A DNA stretch of 64,000 nt from Collibacillus ludicampi (GTDB lineage Bacteria; Bacillota; Bacilli; Tumebacillales; BOQE01): assembly GCF_023705585.1 (NCBI RefSeq), contig NZ_BOQE01000001.1, positions 3,504,710 through 3,568,709 of the forward strand. The letters run 5' to 3'. The translations under genes and the position numbers were made by a program. The notes beneath the pieces are model-generated. The model saw nothing but the letters and a program-made list of their open reading frames with translations. It searched no databases and had not been told where the DNA came from. Every line of letters begins with the position of its first letter. Within the stretch, counting starts at the first letter, position 1. This document shows, piece by piece, positions 5,684 to 54,412 of this stretch.

Positions 5684-7009
5684 ATGAGTACGAATGGCAA
5701 AAAGACGAGTAGTCCCTCATTCATGGTTGGCGAGAATTACAAATGGGCAATTGTCGCCATGCTTTGGGTCGTCTCTTTCTTTAACTATGCCGACCGCAGT
5801 GCAATCACGGCCGTTATGCCGAAATTGAAAGTGGAATACGGCTTTACGGCGGCGGAATTGGGATTATTGGGCACCGCTTTTCTTTGGGTCTATGCTTGTT
5901 CGGCTCCACTGGCGGGATTTTTGGGAGACCGGTTCAAACGAAAAACGATTATTTTGGGCGGCTTGATTTTCTGGAGTATCATCACCTTTGTTACGCCTTT
6001 GGCCGGTTCTTTAGGGATGTTTATCTTCTTTCGAGCGATGACCGGATTGGGGGAAGCCTCTTATTATCCGGCTGGAACAGCGATGATCAGTGATTATCAT
6101 GATCGTAGGACACGGACGCGGGCTTTATCCTTGCATCAGACGGCTGTGTTCGCCGGGGGGATCATTGGAACGACATTTGCCGGTTATTTGGCGGATCAGT
6201 ATCATTGGAAATATGCATTTTTCTTGTATGGGGCTTTAGGGATCGTAATCGCCTTTGTTCTTTGGAAGATGATGAAGGAACCGGAAAAAGGGATGGCGGA
6301 TCAAGCGGAAAAGGTGGAAAAAGTGCCTTTGTCGACGGTTTATAAAACGCCTTCCGCGATTCTACTATCCATCGTTTTCTTCGGAGCGAACTTTGTCACT
6401 TGGGCTTTGAACACATGGATGCCAACTTATTTGCATGATAAGTATCACATGTCGCTTACGATGGCGGCCTTTGCGGGAACATCGGCACTGCAGTTGTCCA
6501 GTTTGTCAGGGGTATTGATTGGCGGCGTAATTGCGGATCTTTTGGTGAAACGGACGATTTTGGCCCGCTTCTACATATTAGCCGCCGGCTTGATCCTGGC
6601 TGCACCATTTGTCTTCATCAGTGGTCAAACGATGTCTGTAAACGTTTTAATCTTCAGTATGATTGGAGCTGGATTTTTCAAGGGGATCTTCGATTCCAGC
6701 ATTTATGCGGCCATGCATGACGTGATGACGCCGGCAGCCCGTTCGACGGCTGTGGGTACGATGACCGCGATTGGTTTTGCGGGCGGCGGGTTAGCGCCTT
6801 TTATCATTGGTGTGTATGCTCCGCAATTAGGATTGGGGATGGCCATGGCTTTAACATCGATCTTGTATGTAGCAGTCGGGGGACTCCTTCTTATATTCCG
6901 GAATGTGATCAAGAAGGACATTTTAAAGCAATCCGTAAAACTGCCACAAGGTAAGGCCCAAGTGTTTAATGGCGCAGAGGCGCAAAGAAATTCTATGGGT
7001 CATTCTTAA
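5684..7009 (+). CDS. MFS transporter, anion:cation symporter (GudP/ExuT-like) type
   Basis: A 441-residue membrane protein with 12 predicted helices. 'NYADRSAITAVMPKL' after helix 1, the loop 2-3 motif 'GFLGDRFKRKTIILG' and 'FRAMTGLGEASYYPAG' are typical of the ACS family that imports sugar acids and other organic anions. GAAAGGAG precedes the ATG. Sitting between a sugar-sensing repressor and a glycoside hydrolase, it likely imports the operon's substrate. An ACS carrier would suit an anionic glycoside such as glucosyl- or mannosylglycerate, but the substrate is not shown by sequence. Confidence 0.85.
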   Translation: MSTNGKKTSSPSFMVGENYKWAIVAMLWVVSFFNYADRSAITAVMPKLKVEYGFTAAELGLLGTAFLWVYACSAPLAGFLGDRFKRKTIILGGLIFWSIITFVTPLAGSLGMFIFFRAMTGLGEASYYPAGTAMISDYHDRRTRTRALSLHQTAVFAGGIIGTTFAGYLADQYHWKYAFFLYGALGIVIAFVLWKMMKEPEKGMADQAEKVEKVPLSTVYKTPSAILLSIVFFGANFVTWALNTWMPTYLHDKYHMSLTMAAFAGTSALQLSSLSGVLIGGVIADLLVKRTILARFYILAAGLILAAPFVFISGQTMSVNVLIFSMIGAGFFKGIFDSSIYAAMHDVMTPAARSTAVGTMTAIGFAGGGLAPFIIGVYAPQLGLGMAMALTSILYVAVGGLLLIFRNVIKKDILKQSVKLPQGKAQVFNGAEAQRNSMGHS

Positions 7010-7055
7010 TAGAGATCATATTTCAAATAAAAATTGAGATTGTGGAGAGATAACC

Positions 7056-9023
7056 ATGCAAACGATGAACCTATCCTATTCCCTTTTTCCGCTGTTATCG
7101 GTCATGAATCAGAAGCCTGTTGACGTAGGATGTGGGCGGTTATCCGCCAGTATCGGATCTGATGGTTTGATTCGATCAATCAACTACTATCATCCGAGCC
7201 AGGGATTTGTGACCCTGGCTCCGATCGGACAGTTTCCTAATGATAAGTGGTATGATAGCGCATTTGTGCGTCAATATCGAAGACGGTTGATTTCAGATCA
7301 AGTGGACGGTTTTGGATTCAGATGGAAAGGGAATCTTCAAAAACAGAAAGTTTATCAGGCGGAGAAGAAATTCCCTTTTTTCTATGACCGGTTCGGAGAG
7401 ATAGATGTCAGTTCCTTGTTTCTTGCCGTGGAGGAGAAAGAGAAAGCGTTTTTGATTCAGCGAATCGAAGTCAAAAATGGAGGTGATCAAACGGTTCGTG
7501 TACCGTTTGAGGTTGGCGGAACCTTTAGCTTAAACCGCTGTAGCTATGGTCAATTGACCGAAGCTGGGCCTATCCCGATCCCTCCGTTAAGTAATGTGAT
7601 GAAAGTCCAGCAAAATCACCTTTTGATTATGAATGCCCATTTACCGGCAACGGTTGATGTGTATCTCTTTGAAGAAGGGGAACCGTTGATTCTTTCTCCC
7701 ATGGAAAAAAGAGCGGATGAGCCGATTACATATCGGCATGAAGCTGAACTTCATCTTAAAAAAGGGGAAAGCCGTACGATTCATATCGTTTATATCGCTC
7801 ATACTCAGGTAGAAGGCCAACCGGAGTTGCATTATTCTTACGTAGAAGAATTGGAAGCAAAAGCCTTCCAACACGGCCCGAGGTGGAAAAAACACAACGG
7901 CCAGGAAAACATAACGAAGTTTTTGATCGAACGAAATGTGAATTATATCGTTTCCTGCTGCTCCATACCTGTATCCGATGAACATGTCTGTGTGATCACG
8001 GATCATCAGTTACTTCCTTTATCGTGGAACCGGGATGCCTATTATATGATGCAGCTTTTGCTGGAATCGGAGAAAAACGTAAATGAGCTGTTTGAAGTTT
8101 CTTATGAATGGGAATGGAGAAATAAAATCCGGCAGATTCTTCGCGGGCATTTGCTCTGGATGTTTGAAAAAGCAGAACGGCCTGATCGATATTGGGGACG
8201 TGCCTATTTAACCAATGGGTTGTGTAAAGATAAAGTGTTTCAATTGGATCAACAGTGTTATCCCCTTCTTGAACTTTGTGATTATCATGAAAGATTCTGC
8301 GACAAAGAAACCGTTCAACGCCTACTTCCACAGGTGAAAGACATTTTGAATATGATGATGGAATATAAGGATGATCAGAAGTGGATCTTCCGGACCGGAG
8401 AAACCCCAGCTGATGATAAAGTGGATTATCCATATCACTTCTCCAGTCAGGTTCTTGTCTGGCATACTCTTCAGCAGCTTGCAACGTTAAATGAGACGTT
8501 TGCTTTTTATGAAGCGGATCTTTTCGAATGGGCGGATCGAGTGAAACAAGATTGCCTGGATGCCTTTGTGACATCCCATAAGGATCGGGAATTGTTTGCT
8601 TACCTTACAGATTTGAAGGGTAATTATCAACTCTATCATGACGCCAATGATTTGCCGACTGTTTATGCTCCAATCTGGGGATTTTGCGATCGGAAGGATG
8701 AAAGATGGATTCATACCATGGAGTTTGCCTTCAGCCCGGAAAATAAGGGTGGATTCTATACGGGAGAATTTGGAGGGCTTGGATCGGTTCATACGCCACA
8801 TGCCTGGCCGTTAGGAGACGGGCAAGAGCTGCTTTTCAGCGGTTTGGTTGAGGACTCGACGCGGCAGGATCAGGTCCTGTGCAAGCTTAAACAAGTGGTT
8901 CAGTGGGATGGATTGTTTTCCGAAGCTATTCATGAAGAGAGAGGGACTGTCGAGTCTAGACATTGGTTTTCGTGGCCGGGAGCCTTCATCTCTTGTGTAC
9001 TTTTATACTTGAAGGAGGAATAA
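7056..9023 (+). CDS. (alpha/alpha)6-barrel glycoside hydrolase, specificity unknown
   Basis: 655 residues, no signal peptide, so it acts in the cytoplasm. The first 280 or so residues look like a beta-rich domain; the rest carries barrel signatures of the GH15/GH63/GH125/debranching-enzyme type: 'LSWNRDAYYMMQLLLE' (near 326), 'QLDQQCYPLLELCDYHE', 'GGLGSVHTPHAWPLGDGQE' and 'ESRHWFSWPGAF' near the C-terminus. The last two resemble GH125 alpha-mannosidases, which would agree with the downstream sugar kinase and mannose-6-phosphate isomerase. A GH63-type glucosyl- or mannosylglycerate hydrolase is the main alternative. Family assignment is tentative. Confidence 0.7.
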   Translation: MQTMNLSYSLFPLLSVMNQKPVDVGCGRLSASIGSDGLIRSINYYHPSQGFVTLAPIGQFPNDKWYDSAFVRQYRRRLISDQVDGFGFRWKGNLQKQKVYQAEKKFPFFYDRFGEIDVSSLFLAVEEKEKAFLIQRIEVKNGGDQTVRVPFEVGGTFSLNRCSYGQLTEAGPIPIPPLSNVMKVQQNHLLIMNAHLPATVDVYLFEEGEPLILSPMEKRADEPITYRHEAELHLKKGESRTIHIVYIAHTQVEGQPELHYSYVEELEAKAFQHGPRWKKHNGQENITKFLIERNVNYIVSCCSIPVSDEHVCVITDHQLLPLSWNRDAYYMMQLLLESEKNVNELFEVSYEWEWRNKIRQILRGHLLWMFEKAERPDRYWGRAYLTNGLCKDKVFQLDQQCYPLLELCDYHERFCDKETVQRLLPQVKDILNMMMEYKDDQKWIFRTGETPADDKVDYPYHFSSQVLVWHTLQQLATLNETFAFYEADLFEWADRVKQDCLDAFVTSHKDRELFAYLTDLKGNYQLYHDANDLPTVYAPIWGFCDRKDERWIHTMEFAFSPENKGGFYTGEFGGLGSVHTPHAWPLGDGQELLFSGLVEDSTRQDQVLCKLKQVVQWDGLFSEAIHEERGTVESRHWFSWPGAFISCVLLYLKEE

Positions 9024-17193: not shown

Positions 17194-17826
17194 ATGCAAA
17201 CAACTGATACACAAATGACCGTTGAAGAAAGTATGCGTGCCCGCCATTCCGTTCGCAAATATCAAAAAGACGTAACGATTCCGGAATCTGAACTGAACGA
17301 AATTCTGGAACTGGCGGCAACGGCTCCGTCTTCCTGGAATTTGCAACATTGGCGCTTCCTCGTCGTAACCGACCAAAAGAGCAAGGAACGCTTGCTGCCG
17401 ATTGCCTATAATCAACAACAAGTTGTCGAATGCTCGGCCGTCATCGTCATCCTCGGTGATGTCGAGGCAGATCGGTCGGCAGAAGCCGTCTTCCGTCCGG
17501 CATTGGAAGCTGGGAAGATGTCAAAAGAAGCGTACGATACTCTTCTAGGCAATATTAAAAACGCATATCAGAATAACCAATTCCGGCGTGACGAAGCGAT
17601 TCTGAACGCAGGATTTGCGGCGATGCAGCTGATGTTGGCGGCGAAGGCGAAGGGTTATGATACCTGCCCGATGGGCGGTTTTGATCGCCAGAAAATCGTA
17701 CAAGAACTGAACATTCCGGAACGTTTCATTCCCGTGATGATGCTCACACTCGGGAAAGCGGCTGCACCCGCGCATCCTACCAAGCGTTTCCCGCTCGAAC
17801 AACTGGTGATCAAAGAAAAATTTTAA
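17194..17826 (+). CDS. Nitroreductase-family FMN flavoprotein
   Basis: 210 residues. 'RHSVRKYQKD' near residue 16 and 'LELAATAPSSWNLQHWRFLVV' are the FMN-binding motifs at the start of the family fold; 'AMQLMLAAKAKGYDTCPMGGFD' completes the site. Such dimeric enzymes reduce nitro compounds, quinones or flavins with NAD(P)H. RBS AAAGGGG about 8 bp before ATG. Single gene followed by a strong terminator. Confidence 0.92.
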   Translation: MQTTDTQMTVEESMRARHSVRKYQKDVTIPESELNEILELAATAPSSWNLQHWRFLVVTDQKSKERLLPIAYNQQQVVECSAVIVILGDVEADRSAEAVFRPALEAGKMSKEAYDTLLGNIKNAYQNNQFRRDEAILNAGFAAMQLMLAAKAKGYDTCPMGGFDRQKIVQELNIPERFIPVMMLTLGKAAAPAHPTKRFPLEQLVIKEKF

Positions 17827-17844: not shown

Positions 17845-17893
17845 AAAGCGAATCAAGTGAGTCGAAGTCCGATTCCCCTTGATTCGCTTTTTT
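17845..17893. terminator. Terminator after the nitroreductase
   Basis: AAAGCGAATCAAG / CTTGATTCGCTTT (13 bp), loop of about 20 bases, then TTTTTTC. It lies between convergent genes and may serve both. Confidence 0.8.
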
Positions 17894-17904
17894 CATTTCA
17901 TAAA

Positions 17905-19026
17905 TTATTGCTTGTATTTTGCGAGCTTCGCTACCACCGATACATCATTGGGAATATGGTCTTTCTTGAGAGTAGAATGGGTGAGAGACGATACCCAATC
18001 GACTTTCGCTTCGTATTTTTGCGTCCGTGCTTTTTGGACCAGAGACTGTAATCGCTCCCTGTTCTGTTCGAGGCTCTCTTTCATCAGGTTCAAACGTTTT
18101 TCCGGGAAGGGAAGTCCAGTCAGAATGGAAGTGATGACAGCGTCCGATTCATTCGGATAGTTGCCTTCAAAGAGAAGCAGGGGTTCACCTATTCTTTCGA
18201 AGAGTGCCGGTACACTGATTAATTTTGATAATCCTTCGGGACCTTCGTAAATCAGACCAGCTTTAACAACACCTACCGTTTCAATCGGTGCGAATACCGA
18301 ACGTATTAGGGATAAATTGAATTGGTTAGATACTTCAGCTTGTGTCTTACAATCGTTCACAACCGTCGTTGAAATGATGGCTGCACCGCGAGTATTGAGA
18401 ACATTAAGAAGGTCAGCTTCGTCAAAGTTGCCCAACGGAGAGGACTTCGTTGTGATCCGGAGGATCGCATCAAATGATCGAATCACTTGCGTGTTCACGA
18501 TTTGATACAATTGGGACTTTGTCGCTTGTGGATTCGTCTTGCGAACTTGTTCGTTATCCACGATGAATACGGGCCCAATTCCTTCAATCGCGGAAAGTTC
18601 GGCCATCGCTTTCGAAGCGTTCATCTTATTGCCGGCAAGGACGTTTTTCTCGGGGAGGATGGCGATAGCTCCAATAATCGTATCAGGAAGGTAGCTGGTC
18701 AATACGTCGATGAGTATAGGGCCCATTCCGGACCCGGTTCCGCCATCCGTCGAGAACGCGACGAGCAAGACTTTCACATTCTTAAAGGATTGGCCTACGA
18801 ATTTACATATCTCATCCCAGTGAAATTGAACAGCCTCAATGCCTACCGTTCGATTTTGACCCGCACCATTGCGACCAGGGACATAATACTTGTTGGGAAC
18901 CTTCGAATTTGAAATCGTGTCGTTGGCATTGGTATTGATGATGGCGGTTGTGAACCCATAAGTGGCTGCTATTTCCGCGATATTCCCACCAGCTTGACCA
19001 ACCCCAAGTATACCTATAGGTTTCAT
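17905..19026 (-). CDS. Divergent tubulin/FtsZ-superfamily GTPase (TubZ-like)
   Basis: 373 residues. The tubulin GTP signature is present as G95-G-T-G-S-G100 in 'FSTDGGTGSGMGP'. The N-terminal glycine loop is 'GVGQAGGNI' (8-16), a third loop is 'GAGQNR' (54-59), and the catalytic NxDxxD motif of loop T7 is 'NFDEAD' (200-205). All parts needed for polymerisation-coupled GTP hydrolysis are therefore visible. It is not the division FtsZ: overall sequence differs and the FtsA/ZipA-binding tail is absent; the C-terminus is a charged helix ending 'KLAKYKQ'. Plasmid TubZ usually has a TubR partner; none is adjacent. RBS TAAGGAGG. Function unknown. Confidence 0.82.
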   Translation of the reverse strand: MKPIGILGVGQAGGNIAEIAATYGFTTAIINTNANDTISNSKVPNKYYVPGRNGAGQNRTVGIEAVQFHWDEICKFVGQSFKNVKVLLVAFSTDGGTGSGMGPILIDVLTSYLPDTIIGAIAILPEKNVLAGNKMNASKAMAELSAIEGIGPVFIVDNEQVRKTNPQATKSQLYQIVNTQVIRSFDAILRITTKSSPLGNFDEADLLNVLNTRGAAIISTTVVNDCKTQAEVSNQFNLSLIRSVFAPIETVGVVKAGLIYEGPEGLSKLISVPALFERIGEPLLLFEGNYPNESDAVITSILTGLPFPEKRLNLMKESLEQNRERLQSLVQKARTQKYEAKVDWVSSLTHSTLKKDHIPNDVSVVAKLAKYKQ

Positions 19027-19338
19027 GATATTCCTCCTTAGGTAGGGTATCCCGCGATAGGGGGGGAGCAGATAATCATGCCATTATACATGATATTTTG
19101 GTTCGGTCTTTCATTATTCGTAATTTTCTTAAATCCAATCCTATAGATTATCATAAGATCTTTGGGTTTTTCCATTTATTAGCTTGGATGTGCAGGCTCT
19201 TCAGTTTCTTTGGGAAAGGAATGACCCGTCGACATAACCCCCATAGGGGGATATAATCGCGTAAAGGAATCATTTTTGAGTGAACATACACAAAACAGAA
19301 AGTGTTAGAGAATTTGATTCGTCGGGGAAGTGATTTTG

Positions 19339-20733
19339 ATGGTTTCAGTAGATATAGCCCATAAACAAACGTCCAAACAAAAGATTTCGAAAATACTCTC
19401 ATTGGCTGTTCCTGCGATGATAGAGAATATTCTTCAGACAGTCGTCGGTTTTGTCGATACGCTTCTCGTGTCTCGGTTGGGATTAACAGAAGTTACAGCG
19501 GTTGGTGTAGCGAATGCAGTTTTAGCTGTCTATATCGCCATTTTTATGGCCATCGGAGTCGGATCCTCTTCCCTCGTCGCACGCAGTGTGGGTGCTGGGG
19601 ATTGGGAACAGGCGAAAGCGATTGCGAAACAATCCACACGGATTTCTGCGATGGCGGGTTTATTCTTTGGTCTGATCACTCTCTTTTTTGCAGAACCATT
19701 CCTTAAAATCATGGGAGCGGAACCAAAGGTTCTAGCTGTAGGGGCTGCCTATTTTCGTATCGTTGCCGTTCCCTCTATCTTCATTTCGTTAATGTTTATT
19801 TTTGGTAGTCTTTTAAGAGCATCCGGAGATACGAAAACACCCATGAAGGTCAGCGGGTGGATGAACCTGATTCATATAGGTTTGGATTACATTTTGATTT
19901 TTGGGGTGTTTGGATTCAATGGTTTAGGGGTTGCAGGTGCAGCATGGGCGACTGTTATTGTGAGGGCTCTTGGAACAATCGTTCTTTTTTCTTTCATATA
20001 TAATTCGAAGATTTCATTCAAAGATACCTCAGTGAACGCAAAGCCATATACATCTCCTATCTTGAAACTCTCCACGCCGGCAGCCATAGAACGCTTAATC
20101 ATGCGTTTAGGGCAGGTACTTTATCTTGGCTTGATCGTCCGTATAGGAACCGAAACCTATGCAGCTCATACGATTGCAGGGAACATCGAAACATTCTCTT
20201 ATATGCCCGGATACGGATTAGCGGTCGCCGCTACCACATTAGTGGGTCAACATATCGGGGCAAAGCGAACAAAAGATGCTTATTCGTATGGAATGTTAAC
20301 GACTGGTGTTGCCATCATATTTATGTCCTTTATAGGTATCCTGTTATTTTTCTTCTCCCCTTGGTTTGCAACCTGGTTTACCTCAGATAAATCTGCCATT
20401 GATATGGTTGTTACGGCGTTACGAATCGATGCTATTGCTCAACCAGCATTAGCCGTCGGTTTGGTTTTGGCAGGAGCCTTACAAGGAGCAGGCGATACGA
20501 TAAGTCCCATGTATAGTACCGCAATTGGCATGTGGATGATTCGTGTTGTAGGGGTTTATATACTGGGAATCCAGTTCCATATGGGAATTGCCGGGGTTTG
20601 GTTATCCATTGCCATTGACTTGTTTGTTCGTGCTCTATTTTTGTTTATTCGGTTCAGAGCTCGGTTCAAAACTTCACCCGATTGTTGCTGCGGACATAAC
20701 AAACCTTTTTCTTTCGAATCCTCCACGCAGTGA
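19339..20733 (+). CDS. MATE-family multidrug/sodium efflux transporter
   Basis: 464 residues, 12 hydrophobic helices in two similar halves. 'ILSLAVPAMIENILQTVVGFVDTLLVSRLG' opens helix 1 and 'PAAIERLIMRLGQVLYLGLIVRIG' opens the second half, both typical of MatE domains. It exports cationic drugs against H+ or Na+. ATG 19339 is chosen over GTG 19330, with GGGGAAG as the likely RBS. No local regulator. Confidence 0.9.
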   Translation: MVSVDIAHKQTSKQKISKILSLAVPAMIENILQTVVGFVDTLLVSRLGLTEVTAVGVANAVLAVYIAIFMAIGVGSSSLVARSVGAGDWEQAKAIAKQSTRISAMAGLFFGLITLFFAEPFLKIMGAEPKVLAVGAAYFRIVAVPSIFISLMFIFGSLLRASGDTKTPMKVSGWMNLIHIGLDYILIFGVFGFNGLGVAGAAWATVIVRALGTIVLFSFIYNSKISFKDTSVNAKPYTSPILKLSTPAAIERLIMRLGQVLYLGLIVRIGTETYAAHTIAGNIETFSYMPGYGLAVAATTLVGQHIGAKRTKDAYSYGMLTTGVAIIFMSFIGILLFFFSPWFATWFTSDKSAIDMVVTALRIDAIAQPALAVGLVLAGALQGAGDTISPMYSTAIGMWMIRVVGVYILGIQFHMGIAGVWLSIAIDLFVRALFLFIRFRARFKTSPDCCCGHNKPFSFESSTQ

Positions 20734-28865: not shown

Positions 28866-28974
28866 TTTTCAATCATCAAGGGGACGATTTCGACGTTAGA
28901 ATATGTCATCTGTCCGTTTCTTTTTGAATTTTAATTTAATATAGTAAATCAGAAAATTACAAGGAGATGAGATT

Positions 28975-29592
28975 ATGGACGATTGGAAATTGTTTATGTC
29001 AAGCAGAGAGTCAGAGTCCGAGTCAGAGTCAGAGAGACGTAGGCGAGAATCTGAGTCAGAGAGTCGTGAAAGAGAGTCTGAGTCGGAGAGTCGCGAAAGA
29101 GAGTCCGAGTCAGAGTCAGAAAGACGTAGGCGAGAGTCTGAGTCAGAGTTTGAGAGACATGAGCGAGAGTCTGAGTCAGAAAGACACGAGTCAGAGTCTG
29201 AGTCTGAGTTTGAGTTTGTGAAAGAGAAGAGAGAGTTTAAGAGAGTGTTTGTGAGAAGAAGGTCAGAGTCTGAGTCAGAGTTTGAGAGACATGAGTCTGA
29301 GTCAGAGAGTCGTGAAAGAGAATCAGAGTCAGAGTTTGAGAGACATGAGTCCGAGTCGGAGCGACGTGAAAGAGAGTCCGAGTCAGAGAGTCGTGAAAGA
29401 GAATCAGAGTCTGAATCAGAGAGTCGTGAAAGAGAGTCCGAGTCAGAGTCAGAAAGCCGTCGCCGCACGACAGGCCGTCGCCGTACCACAGGCCGTCGCC
29501 GCACGACAGGCCGTCGCCGTACCACGGGTCGCCGCCGCACCACGGGTCGTCGCAGTACCACGGGTCGTCGCCGTACCACGGGTCGTCGATGA
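28975..29592 (+). CDS. Low-complexity Ser-Glu-Arg protein with RRRTTG repeats
   Basis: 205 residues. After MDDWKLFMSSR come about 70 residues of (Ser-Glu)n broken by RRRR, RERE or HERE blocks, a short non-repeat island around residues 80-97 (FVKEKREFKRVFVRRR), more Ser-Glu repeats, and seven RRRTTG-type hexads (162-205). There is no signal peptide, membrane helix or known domain. AAGGAGATGAG precedes ATG 28975. Acidic/serine blocks followed by Arg-Thr blocks recall spore-coat proteins such as CotG/CotB that are phosphorylated by CotH kinases; this is analogy, not homology. The convergent neighbour at 29993 carries the same RTTGRR motif, so the two probably act together. Confidence 0.7.
   Translation: MDDWKLFMSSRESESESESERRRRESESESRERESESESRERESESESERRRRESESEFERHERESESERHESESESEFEFVKEKREFKRVFVRRRSESESEFERHESESESRERESESEFERHESESERRERESESESRERESESESESRERESESESESRRRTTGRRRTTGRRRTTGRRRTTGRRRTTGRRSTTGRRRTTGRR
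29000..29590 (+). repeat. Tandem GAGTCN-type and CGTCGCCGTACCACN-type repeats
   Basis: Nearly the whole coding sequence is built from 6-bp Ser-Glu codon pairs and then an 18-bp Arg-Arg-Arg-Thr-Thr-Gly unit. Because of the periodicity, other frames are also open, including a long antisense frame (28896-29753). Synonymous codons vary among units, which suggests selection on the protein. Confidence 0.8.
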
Positions 29593-29776
29593 GCGAGGGT
29601 CAGAGTCTGGGAGTTCATTCGACTAAAAATCAAAAGCATGAATCTGAAAAGCAACAAATTATACGAAAAGAGCTTTTTATAATAAAGTTCTAACGTGGGT
29701 AGGTATTTACCACAGCAAATATATTCTAAAAGTACCGCGCGACTAATGAACACTCCGCTTGAGGAGCTTGGTATGT

Positions 29777-52495: not shown

Positions 52496-54412
52496 GTGAA
52501 GCCAGTGGAGACAGAGATCGATCGTCTGGTTTCATTATTAAAAAAGAGCCAGTCTCAAGACGGATCTTGGCGCTATTGCTTTGAACTCGGCTCGATGACG
52601 GAAGCGTATATGATCATCCTATTACGGACACTCATGATTCATGATGAAGACCTGATCAGGAAATTTGCCGAACGAATCATCCAAAAGCAGGAGAAAAATG
52701 GTGCTTGGAAGTTGTTTTATGACGAGAAGGAGGGGAATCTGTCTGCCACCATAGAAGCGTCCTATGCTCTATTATTTTCCGGCTACCGTGAAAAATCTGA
52801 CGAGAACATGAGGGCGGCACGCGAGTTTATTTTGTCGAAAGGGGGGATCACGGAAGCGAAATTATTGACAAAGGTGATGTTGGCCTTAACCGGCCAGTTT
52901 CCGTGGCCTCATCGTTTTCTGGTTCCTGTTGAAATCATGCTGCTTCCTCATCATTTTCCGCTTCATTTCTTTGATTTCGTCGGATATGCCCGGGTACATG
53001 TCGCTCCCATCTTGATCGTCATGGATCGAAAATTTTCCATAAAAACAAAGAAAACGCCCGATCTGTCCGATTTGTACAGCAAACCGTTTAGATTCGGCAA
53101 CGAGCCATTCTTTACAAATCAACAACAGACCAGAAGCCAGTCGATTTATACAATCATCAAAGATTGGCTTCGAAAGCTTCCTTATCTGCCTCAGCATATG
53201 CACACGTTGGCTCTACGTGCGGCTGAACGCTTTATGCTGAACCGATTGGAAGTTGATGGGACTTTATACAGTTATTTTAGCGCGACCTTTCTTATGATCT
53301 TCGCTCTACTTGCCCTCGGGTATTCCCATCGACATCCGGTGATTATTCGCGCAATTGAAGGATTGAAAACATTAGCGTTTGAAACAAACGGACAGACCCT
53401 TATGCAAAATTCAACGTCCACCGTTTGGGACACCGCACTGTTGAGTTATGCCCTACAAGAAGCCGGTATTCCGCACGCAAATCTAATGCTTCAAAAAACA
53501 GGCCGATATTTGCTTTCCAGGCAACACACCAAATACGGGGACTGGAGAATCCACAATCCCAATATCGAACCCGGAGGATGGGGATTCTCTGATGTGAATA
53601 CGATCAATCCGGATGTCGACGATACGTGTGCCGCTTTACGAGCAATCAGCTCGCTGGCAAAAAACGATCCGTTGTATCGGAATGCTTGGAATCGCGGCGT
53701 CAAGTGGATTCTTTCCATGCAAAATGATGATGGGGGTTGGCCAGCATTCGAGAAAAATACAGACAAGAAAATCCTCAGGTGGCTGCCGATCGATGGATCA
53801 GATTCAACCAGCACCGATCCTTCCAGTGCCGATTTAACAGGGCGGACCTTGCATTTTCTTGGAAAACATGTGGGGTTAACCATCCACGATTCGAATATCA
53901 ATCGAGCCGTTCGGTGGCTGATTCAACACCAGGAAGAAGATGGATCATGGTATGGCCGTTGGGGAATCTGTTACATTTACGGTACATGGGCAGCTATTAC
54001 AGGCATGATTGCCGTCGGTGTTTCTCCCCATCATCCTGTCATTCAAAAAGCAGTCCGGTGGTTACTTTCGATTCAGAATTCTGATGGAGGATGGGGTGAA
54101 TCCTGTTACAGCGATACGGAAAAAAAGTACGTTCCTTTGGGAGCAAGCACGCTTTCCCAAACCGCCTGGGGTGTCGATGCCTTGCTTGCCGTTTCAAACG
54201 AATCCATTCAAGCCATCGAACGAGGAATCCGTTTTTTGATCGATTCCGGAAGCAAAAACGATTGGACAACGATCTATCCAACGGGAGCCGGGATGCCAGG
54301 CGGGTTTTATATCCATTATCACAGTTACCGTTATATTTGGCCGTTACTCGCTCTCAGCCATTACAAGAACAAATATAACCAAGAAAACCACGTAGACACC
54401 CATCCCTCTTAA
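52496..54412 (+). CDS. shc: Squalene-hopene cyclase
   Basis: Cyclises squalene to hopene, the base of hopanoid membrane lipids. 638 residues, the usual length. The catalytic acid motif D-x-D-D-T is at 373-377 ('INPDVDDTCAAL'), and several QW repeats are visible, such as 'QSQDGSW', 'QNDDGGWPAFE', 'QEEDGSWYGRWGICYIYG' and 'QNSDGGWGE'. Monotopic membrane enzyme. GTG 52496 with AGGAGAAGGAG upstream. No squalene synthase genes (hpnCDE) lie in the window. Confidence 0.97.
   Translation: MKPVETEIDRLVSLLKKSQSQDGSWRYCFELGSMTEAYMIILLRTLMIHDEDLIRKFAERIIQKQEKNGAWKLFYDEKEGNLSATIEASYALLFSGYREKSDENMRAAREFILSKGGITEAKLLTKVMLALTGQFPWPHRFLVPVEIMLLPHHFPLHFFDFVGYARVHVAPILIVMDRKFSIKTKKTPDLSDLYSKPFRFGNEPFFTNQQQTRSQSIYTIIKDWLRKLPYLPQHMHTLALRAAERFMLNRLEVDGTLYSYFSATFLMIFALLALGYSHRHPVIIRAIEGLKTLAFETNGQTLMQNSTSTVWDTALLSYALQEAGIPHANLMLQKTGRYLLSRQHTKYGDWRIHNPNIEPGGWGFSDVNTINPDVDDTCAALRAISSLAKNDPLYRNAWNRGVKWILSMQNDDGGWPAFEKNTDKKILRWLPIDGSDSTSTDPSSADLTGRTLHFLGKHVGLTIHDSNINRAVRWLIQHQEEDGSWYGRWGICYIYGTWAAITGMIAVGVSPHHPVIQKAVRWLLSIQNSDGGWGESCYSDTEKKYVPLGASTLSQTAWGVDALLAVSNESIQAIERGIRFLIDSGSKNDWTTIYPTGAGMPGGFYIHYHSYRYIWPLLALSHYKNKYNQENHVDTHPS

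Follow-up and report, generated by a model that had tools for sequence, protein, structure and literature searches.

Known systems and the present locus

The known tubulin-like GTPases closest to the gene described here are the TubZ proteins of type III TubRZ(Y) modules, such as those of plasmid pBM400, phage G (gp138) and a set of ~125-kb prophages. In all of these the gene resides on a plasmid, phage or other element and is coupled to TubR. In plasmid systems TubR binds the C-terminal tail of TubZ, which is the docking site for TubR-tubC (PMC5016525), and the same tail controls filament dynamics (PMC5016525, PMC5322520). TubZ has been called 'plasmidic' in a review (PMC9871819). For a TubZ that is chromosomal and has no TubR there is one precedent in the literature, in some Clostridia, in which TubY is said to be encoded alongside, according to PMC7762940, itself citing earlier work.

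The gene analysed here encodes 373 residues and lies within a stretch of 64,000 nucleotides from Collibacillus ludicampi (hereafter, the window). Its product has in common with the TubZ of type III modules a length of ~370 residues, a tip motif and a predicted TubZ-type fold, but the gene is chromosomal, monocistronic and without TubR. With the clostridial proteins it shares the chromosomal location and the absence of TubR, and it differs in having no MerR-type TubY next to it, as judged from the published description. What appears to be new with respect to that precedent is the lack of an adjoining TubY and the fact that the gene is core to a genus. The RepX/TubZ proteins of pXO1-type plasmids (4ei7) share the TubZ fold, but belong to another clade and are longer (about 410-440 residues), while PhuZ and CetZ are members of the same superfamily that are both much more distant. 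FtsZ has the superfamily fold, the GGTG and T7 loops and the layout of linker and terminal peptide in common with the window protein, and is distinguished from it by clade, model score and tip motif (see below). No paper on the chromosomal clade was found in the open literature, most subscription journals lying outside the scope of the search.

The reading favoured here, to which we assign a probability of roughly 55%, is that a TubZ from a mobile type III (tubC-TubR-TubZ) module lost its TubR, became fixed on the chromosome and now acts as a filament GTPase of the host. A genus-core TubZ that is under strong selection and has no DNA-binding partner raises two questions: what use a bacterium may have for a tubulin-like filament of its own, and whether hosts acquire cytoskeletal proteins from mobile elements. 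If this reading is true, Neobacillus, a culturable genus, has an extra host cytoskeletal GTPase.

Features of the chromosomal gene

The initial annotation described a stand-alone GTPase gene at 17905-19026. The open reading frame is real and intact, but it lies on the minus strand, with the ATG start codon at 19026 and the stop codon at 17905-17907, the plus strand of the same interval being rich in stop codons. The elements of a polymerising GTPase are present as had been claimed. The GGTGSG tubulin signature (T4 loop, residues 95-100) is encoded by 18727..18744 and the NFDEAD catalytic T7 loop (residues 200-205) by 18412..18429, both on the minus strand, and the two loops are near-invariant: in an alignment of 47 relatives, G95, G96, G98, S99 and G100 of the former are invariant, as is D202 of the latter, with D205 near-invariant.

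The start codon is preceded by a strong ribosome-binding site, AAGGAGG (19033..19039, minus strand), a type of site that also precedes the Neobacillus members. Further upstream, a TATAAT hexamer resembling a -10 box (19083..19088, minus strand) is a weak candidate promoter, judged by its letters and accompanied by no good -35 box; it is absent from the output of the promoter scan. Downstream, an inverted repeat (17846..17889, arms 17846-17857 and 17878-17889) forms a bidirectional terminator-like hairpin that separates the tubZ-like gene from a convergent nitroreductase-like gene (17194..17826, plus strand) and would be common to both. Its fold z-score of -2.6 was obtained on a segment too short to include the outermost base pairs, and the terminator scan did not list it. 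On the other side, a gap of 303 nt separates the gene from a divergent MATE transporter gene (19330..20733, plus strand). Both neighbours are genomic context and do not belong to the system. The window gene is monocistronic and has its own upstream region.

The source genome has 4.09 Mb, and the contig that carries the gene accounts for 3.99 Mb of it. The notion that the gene stands alone on a chromosome, among metabolic neighbours, is thus borne out. A plasmid or prophage integrated at this site was considered and rejected, as the immediate neighbours include no element genes.

Relationship to TubZ and FtsZ

The window protein matches the Pfam Tubulin family above the curated cut-off (E=8e-11), and a phmmer search against PDB sequences recovers the TubZ of phage c-st (2.4e-13), RepX (4.9e-10) and an Odinarchaeotal FtsZ (5e-10). 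The PhuZ profile phrog_4733 also matches, at 3e-9. By contrast, the protein fails the ftsZ equivalog model TIGR00065, scoring 42.7 bits against a cut-off of 295.2, and the genome encodes a separate, true FtsZ (C1:3057030) behind an FtsA-like open reading frame, away from the window gene, which has no ftsA or divisome neighbours. In an unrooted tree of 53 proteins, from which CetZ was left out, the window protein and the chromosomal proteins of Neobacillus form one clade (support 100/100), apart from an equally supported FtsZ clade (100/100) and from the RepX-type TubZ proteins; PhuZ is remote from the window clade, at the end of a very long branch. The placement outside FtsZ proposed in the initial annotation is therefore upheld by tree and model scores, which also lead to rejection of an FtsZ paralogue as an explanation.

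The predicted structure agrees with this placement. An AlphaFold2 model, built from the alignment of 47 relatives with three plasmid rows left out, reaches a pLDDT of 89.1 and a pTM of 0.87. Its best Foldseek match in the PDB is the TubZ of c-st (3v3t, 3.8e-24, TM-score of 0.89 on the target); the top two matches are TubZ proteins, CetZ (3zid) ranks third, and the TubZ of B. cereus and FtsZ follow. By sequence, tree and AlphaFold/Foldseek comparison, the window protein is a tubulin/FtsZ-superfamily GTPase nearest to TubZ. The observation is beyond chance, considering the Pfam and phmmer matches, the orthologues in 58 Neobacillus species, at 53-60% identity, and the low dN/dS values described below.

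The protein had also been said to lack the tail of FtsZ. This holds for a tail of the FtsZ type, but the protein has a tail of its own (residues 339-373, 17908..18012 on the minus strand), which the AlphaFold2 confidence profile and the motif counts divide into a disordered linker of ~24 residues (339-362) and a short conserved tip helix (364-370). The tip of the window clade is basic and follows the pattern S-x(3)-KLxKYQ/K. The motif [LIM]x[KR][YFH] is found in 40 of 49 chromosomal members, an analogous one in 10 of 12 mobile TubZ proteins, and the window tip motif in none of 21 FtsZ proteins.

Distribution, descent and selection

Scans of viral and genome contigs with the single sequence gave no match, and the family was recovered with an alignment as query. 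This query returned 50 loci from genome contigs, at 52-60% identity to the window protein, in Neobacillus, Mesobacillus, Niallia, Peribacillus and unassigned Bacillus species, several of them on complete chromosomes. Within the family of Neobacillus, 49 of 161 sampled genomes are positive at E < 1e-120, and within the genus itself 58 of 62 species have an orthologue (94% retention). The gene is single-copy, with one of this type per genome across the clade. Outside Neobacillus and its kin the distribution is sporadic, as only one of 14 genomes from the order of the window organism has the gene, namely the window genome.

Distances between the TubZ proteins track those between the SerC proteins of the same 21 genomes (Mantel test, r 0.49, p 0.001), which suits a mostly vertical descent. 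A recent transfer from Neobacillus to the window organism is unsupported, the distance being 0.44 where 0.24 is expected from SerC, itself an imperfect yardstick. Close pairs of the clade show dN/dS values of 0.02-0.13, and the clade is under strong purifying selection. These values bear on the idea that a plasmid or prophage once integrated here and that the gene is what is left of it, decaying and no longer functional. Such a remnant would account for the missing TubR and for the unrelated metabolic genes around the gene, and one species, Neobacillus pocheonensis, does have a broken copy; but the selection and the 94% retention speak against decay, as does the conservation of the ribosome-binding site and of a promoter-like element. 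A remnant is hence highly improbable, and a pseudogene reading is rejected by dN/dS and retention. As a separate observation, the reading frame of the N. pocheonensis copy (L133, 6001-7110) shifts close to the start codon, either because of an error in sequencing or because the gene has been lost in this species. As nearly every Neobacillus species keeps one relative under strong selection, the gene has probably been adopted by the host cell.

Genomic neighbourhood and upstream element

Within 6-kb flanks of the 50 loci there is no conserved neighbour, operon or partner gene, and the neighbours are unrelated metabolic genes, so that the neighbourhood offers no genetic hint of a cargo or adaptor. 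Close relatives often have the sequence around the orphan gene in common on one side only (L126/L132, L104/L109 and L088/L103), as if the gene marked the edges of rearrangements or insertions. Active relocation of the gene in Neobacillus was considered as well and is weakened by a control with serC, the neighbours of which are also poorly shared, in 9 and 23 of 210 genome pairs against 2 and 2 for the orphan gene.

Upstream of the gene, the element GTCTAA-N13-GAGTAT or a close variant is present in 35 of 49 loci. The conserved element GTCTAA-N13-GAGTATTAT is exemplified by L086 5948-5972. Of 12 genomes with sizes of 4.5-6.3 Mb, 11 have exactly one copy of a stricter version, each time just upstream of the gene, with zero matches in the control. 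The niacini-type group and the window gene have other upstream sequences. The consensus of SigB-dependent promoters reads GTTTAA-N15(+/-2)-GGGTAT (PMC9847131), and the element resembles it in spacing and letters without matching it; because each box is off by one position, a SigB promoter is a hint only, and the identification as such was not retained.

Mobile relatives and the absence of TubR

More distant relatives, which align over most of their length at 28-36% identity, are found in phage G (gp138), pBM400, ~125-kb Bacillus prophages and Paenibacillus elements. Those recovered by tblastn (30-34%) comprise ~50-kb plasmids of Priestia megaterium, including pBM400, two ~123-kb Bacillus plasmids, an 898-kb plasmid of Pontibacillus and the giant phage G. 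When viral contigs were searched with the alignment, many Bacillus prophages of ~125 kb were recovered as well, among other matches. In nearly all mobile relatives a winged-helix gene of ~80-130 codons lies directly upstream and usually overlaps the start of tubZ; it is also found in the Paenibacillus relatives and in two further relatives (30-34%) from the family of Neobacillus, the Pontibacillus copy being an exception that has no coupled small gene. As the profile of this small gene matches TubR proteins of solved structure (4asn, 1.1e-36; 6tey, 2.7e-10), the distant relatives represent type III partition modules. Two of the Paenibacillus tubR-tubZ pairs lie in what are apparently large integrated elements: one is close to an integrase, an FtsK/HerA-type ATPase and a homing-endonuclease-like gene (L140), neighbours that fit a mobile element, and the other is close to an IMS-type polymerase (L137).

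At the orphan gene, the 303-nt gap upstream contains no TubR-like open reading frame. One open frame of 83 residues ends 124 nt upstream of the gene and has no Pfam match. In the window genome the TubR profile has no match whatsoever, and in 36 genomes of the Neobacillus type it detects generic winged-helix genes only (best 1e-4); as a positive control, it recovers TubR in three of three Paenibacillus genomes at 1e-35. As far as this profile shows, the clade thus appears to be without TubR beside the gene or elsewhere in the 37 genomes; a TubR acting in trans that is too divergent for the profile could exist. A search for iterons showed no tubC array upstream of the window gene, nor a clear one upstream of the tubR of pBM400. 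Since TubR accompanies almost all outgroup relatives and is absent from the window clade, the direction of change would be from mobile element to host, in a tree that is unrooted.

The same genome contains a second GTPase of this kind on a separate 88-kb contig (L202, G000:C2:58000-72000), which matches Pfam Tubulin and, weakly, TubZ-like_C. Three open reading frames on the plus strand there encode a winged-helix-like protein of 137 residues upstream (5783-6196), the TubZ-like protein (6117-7616) and, downstream, a MerR-type protein of 261 residues with a long coiled region (7926-8711). The three together have the appearance of a full TubR-TubZ-TubY set, distinct from the orphan on the chromosome. 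A tblastn search with the TubY-like protein of this contig gave no match beside the window gene and, across the 50 loci, a single match to a generic MerR protein.

Two explanations would keep the orphan gene tied to mobile elements. According to the first, the chromosomal TubZ serves as a motor in trans for plasmids or prophages equipped with TubR and tubC but no TubZ. The tail retained by the orphan proteins is in keeping with this, since plasmid systems require docking of TubR-tubC to it (PMC5016525), but no TubR-like gene was found by profile in any of the 37 orphan-holding genomes with controls at 1e-35, and such a motor is very unlikely. According to the second, the host excludes incoming TubRZ plasmids and phages (of the pBM400, phage G and ~125-kb prophage types) by means of an orphan TubZ that captures their TubR-tubC or poisons their filaments. 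The tip peptide is the same as in mobile TubZ proteins that bind TubR, and it is on elements of just this kind, in Bacillaceae, that the nearest mobile relatives occur; co-polymerisation is nonetheless doubtful at only ~30% identity, the selection is strongly purifying and not that of an arms race, and the neighbours are ordinary metabolic genes, all of which makes interference quite unlikely.

A possible role for the tail

The conservation of a TubZ-type tip in proteins that have no TubR suggests that a substitute adaptor binds it, or that the tail itself controls the filaments. One possible partner is a division or membrane protein: the orphan TubZ would then be an auxiliary factor of division or of the envelope, forming a second FtsZ-superfamily filament that works at the septum or the spore in the manner of an FtsZ paralogue. 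Its layout of a globular GTPase, a disordered linker and a conserved terminal peptide is like that of FtsZ, and it is retained as a core gene of the genus. Against this, the protein is nearer to TubZ than to FtsZ in sequence, tree and fold, four of the 62 Neobacillus species do without it, so that it is not essential, and the gene does not lie near division genes; a role of this kind therefore seems unlikely.

Under the preferred reading, that of a TubZ freed from its partition module, we think that the window protein is a GTPase that polymerises and that the host has put to a new use. It would bind GTP, polymerise head-to-tail through the T7 loop and possibly treadmill as TubZ does, while the disordered tail with its conserved basic tip helix may dock an adaptor of the host. 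Its role would be a housekeeping one, neither division proper nor plasmid partition. A more specific proposal is that a tubulin has been domesticated in Neobacillus and a few other Bacilli: a segregation motor derived from a mobile element, whose filaments perform a cellular task other than division and plasmid partition and whose tail, formerly the docking site of TubR, has gained a new adaptor. We put the chances of this a little short of even.

Elsewhere in the window, two further open reading frames deserve mention. The frame at 28896-29753 on the minus strand, its coding strand being tentative, is strongly repetitive and consists of RRPVV and SDSDSL repeats, and that at 52496-54412 encodes a protein that resembles squalene-hopene cyclases in its sequence features.
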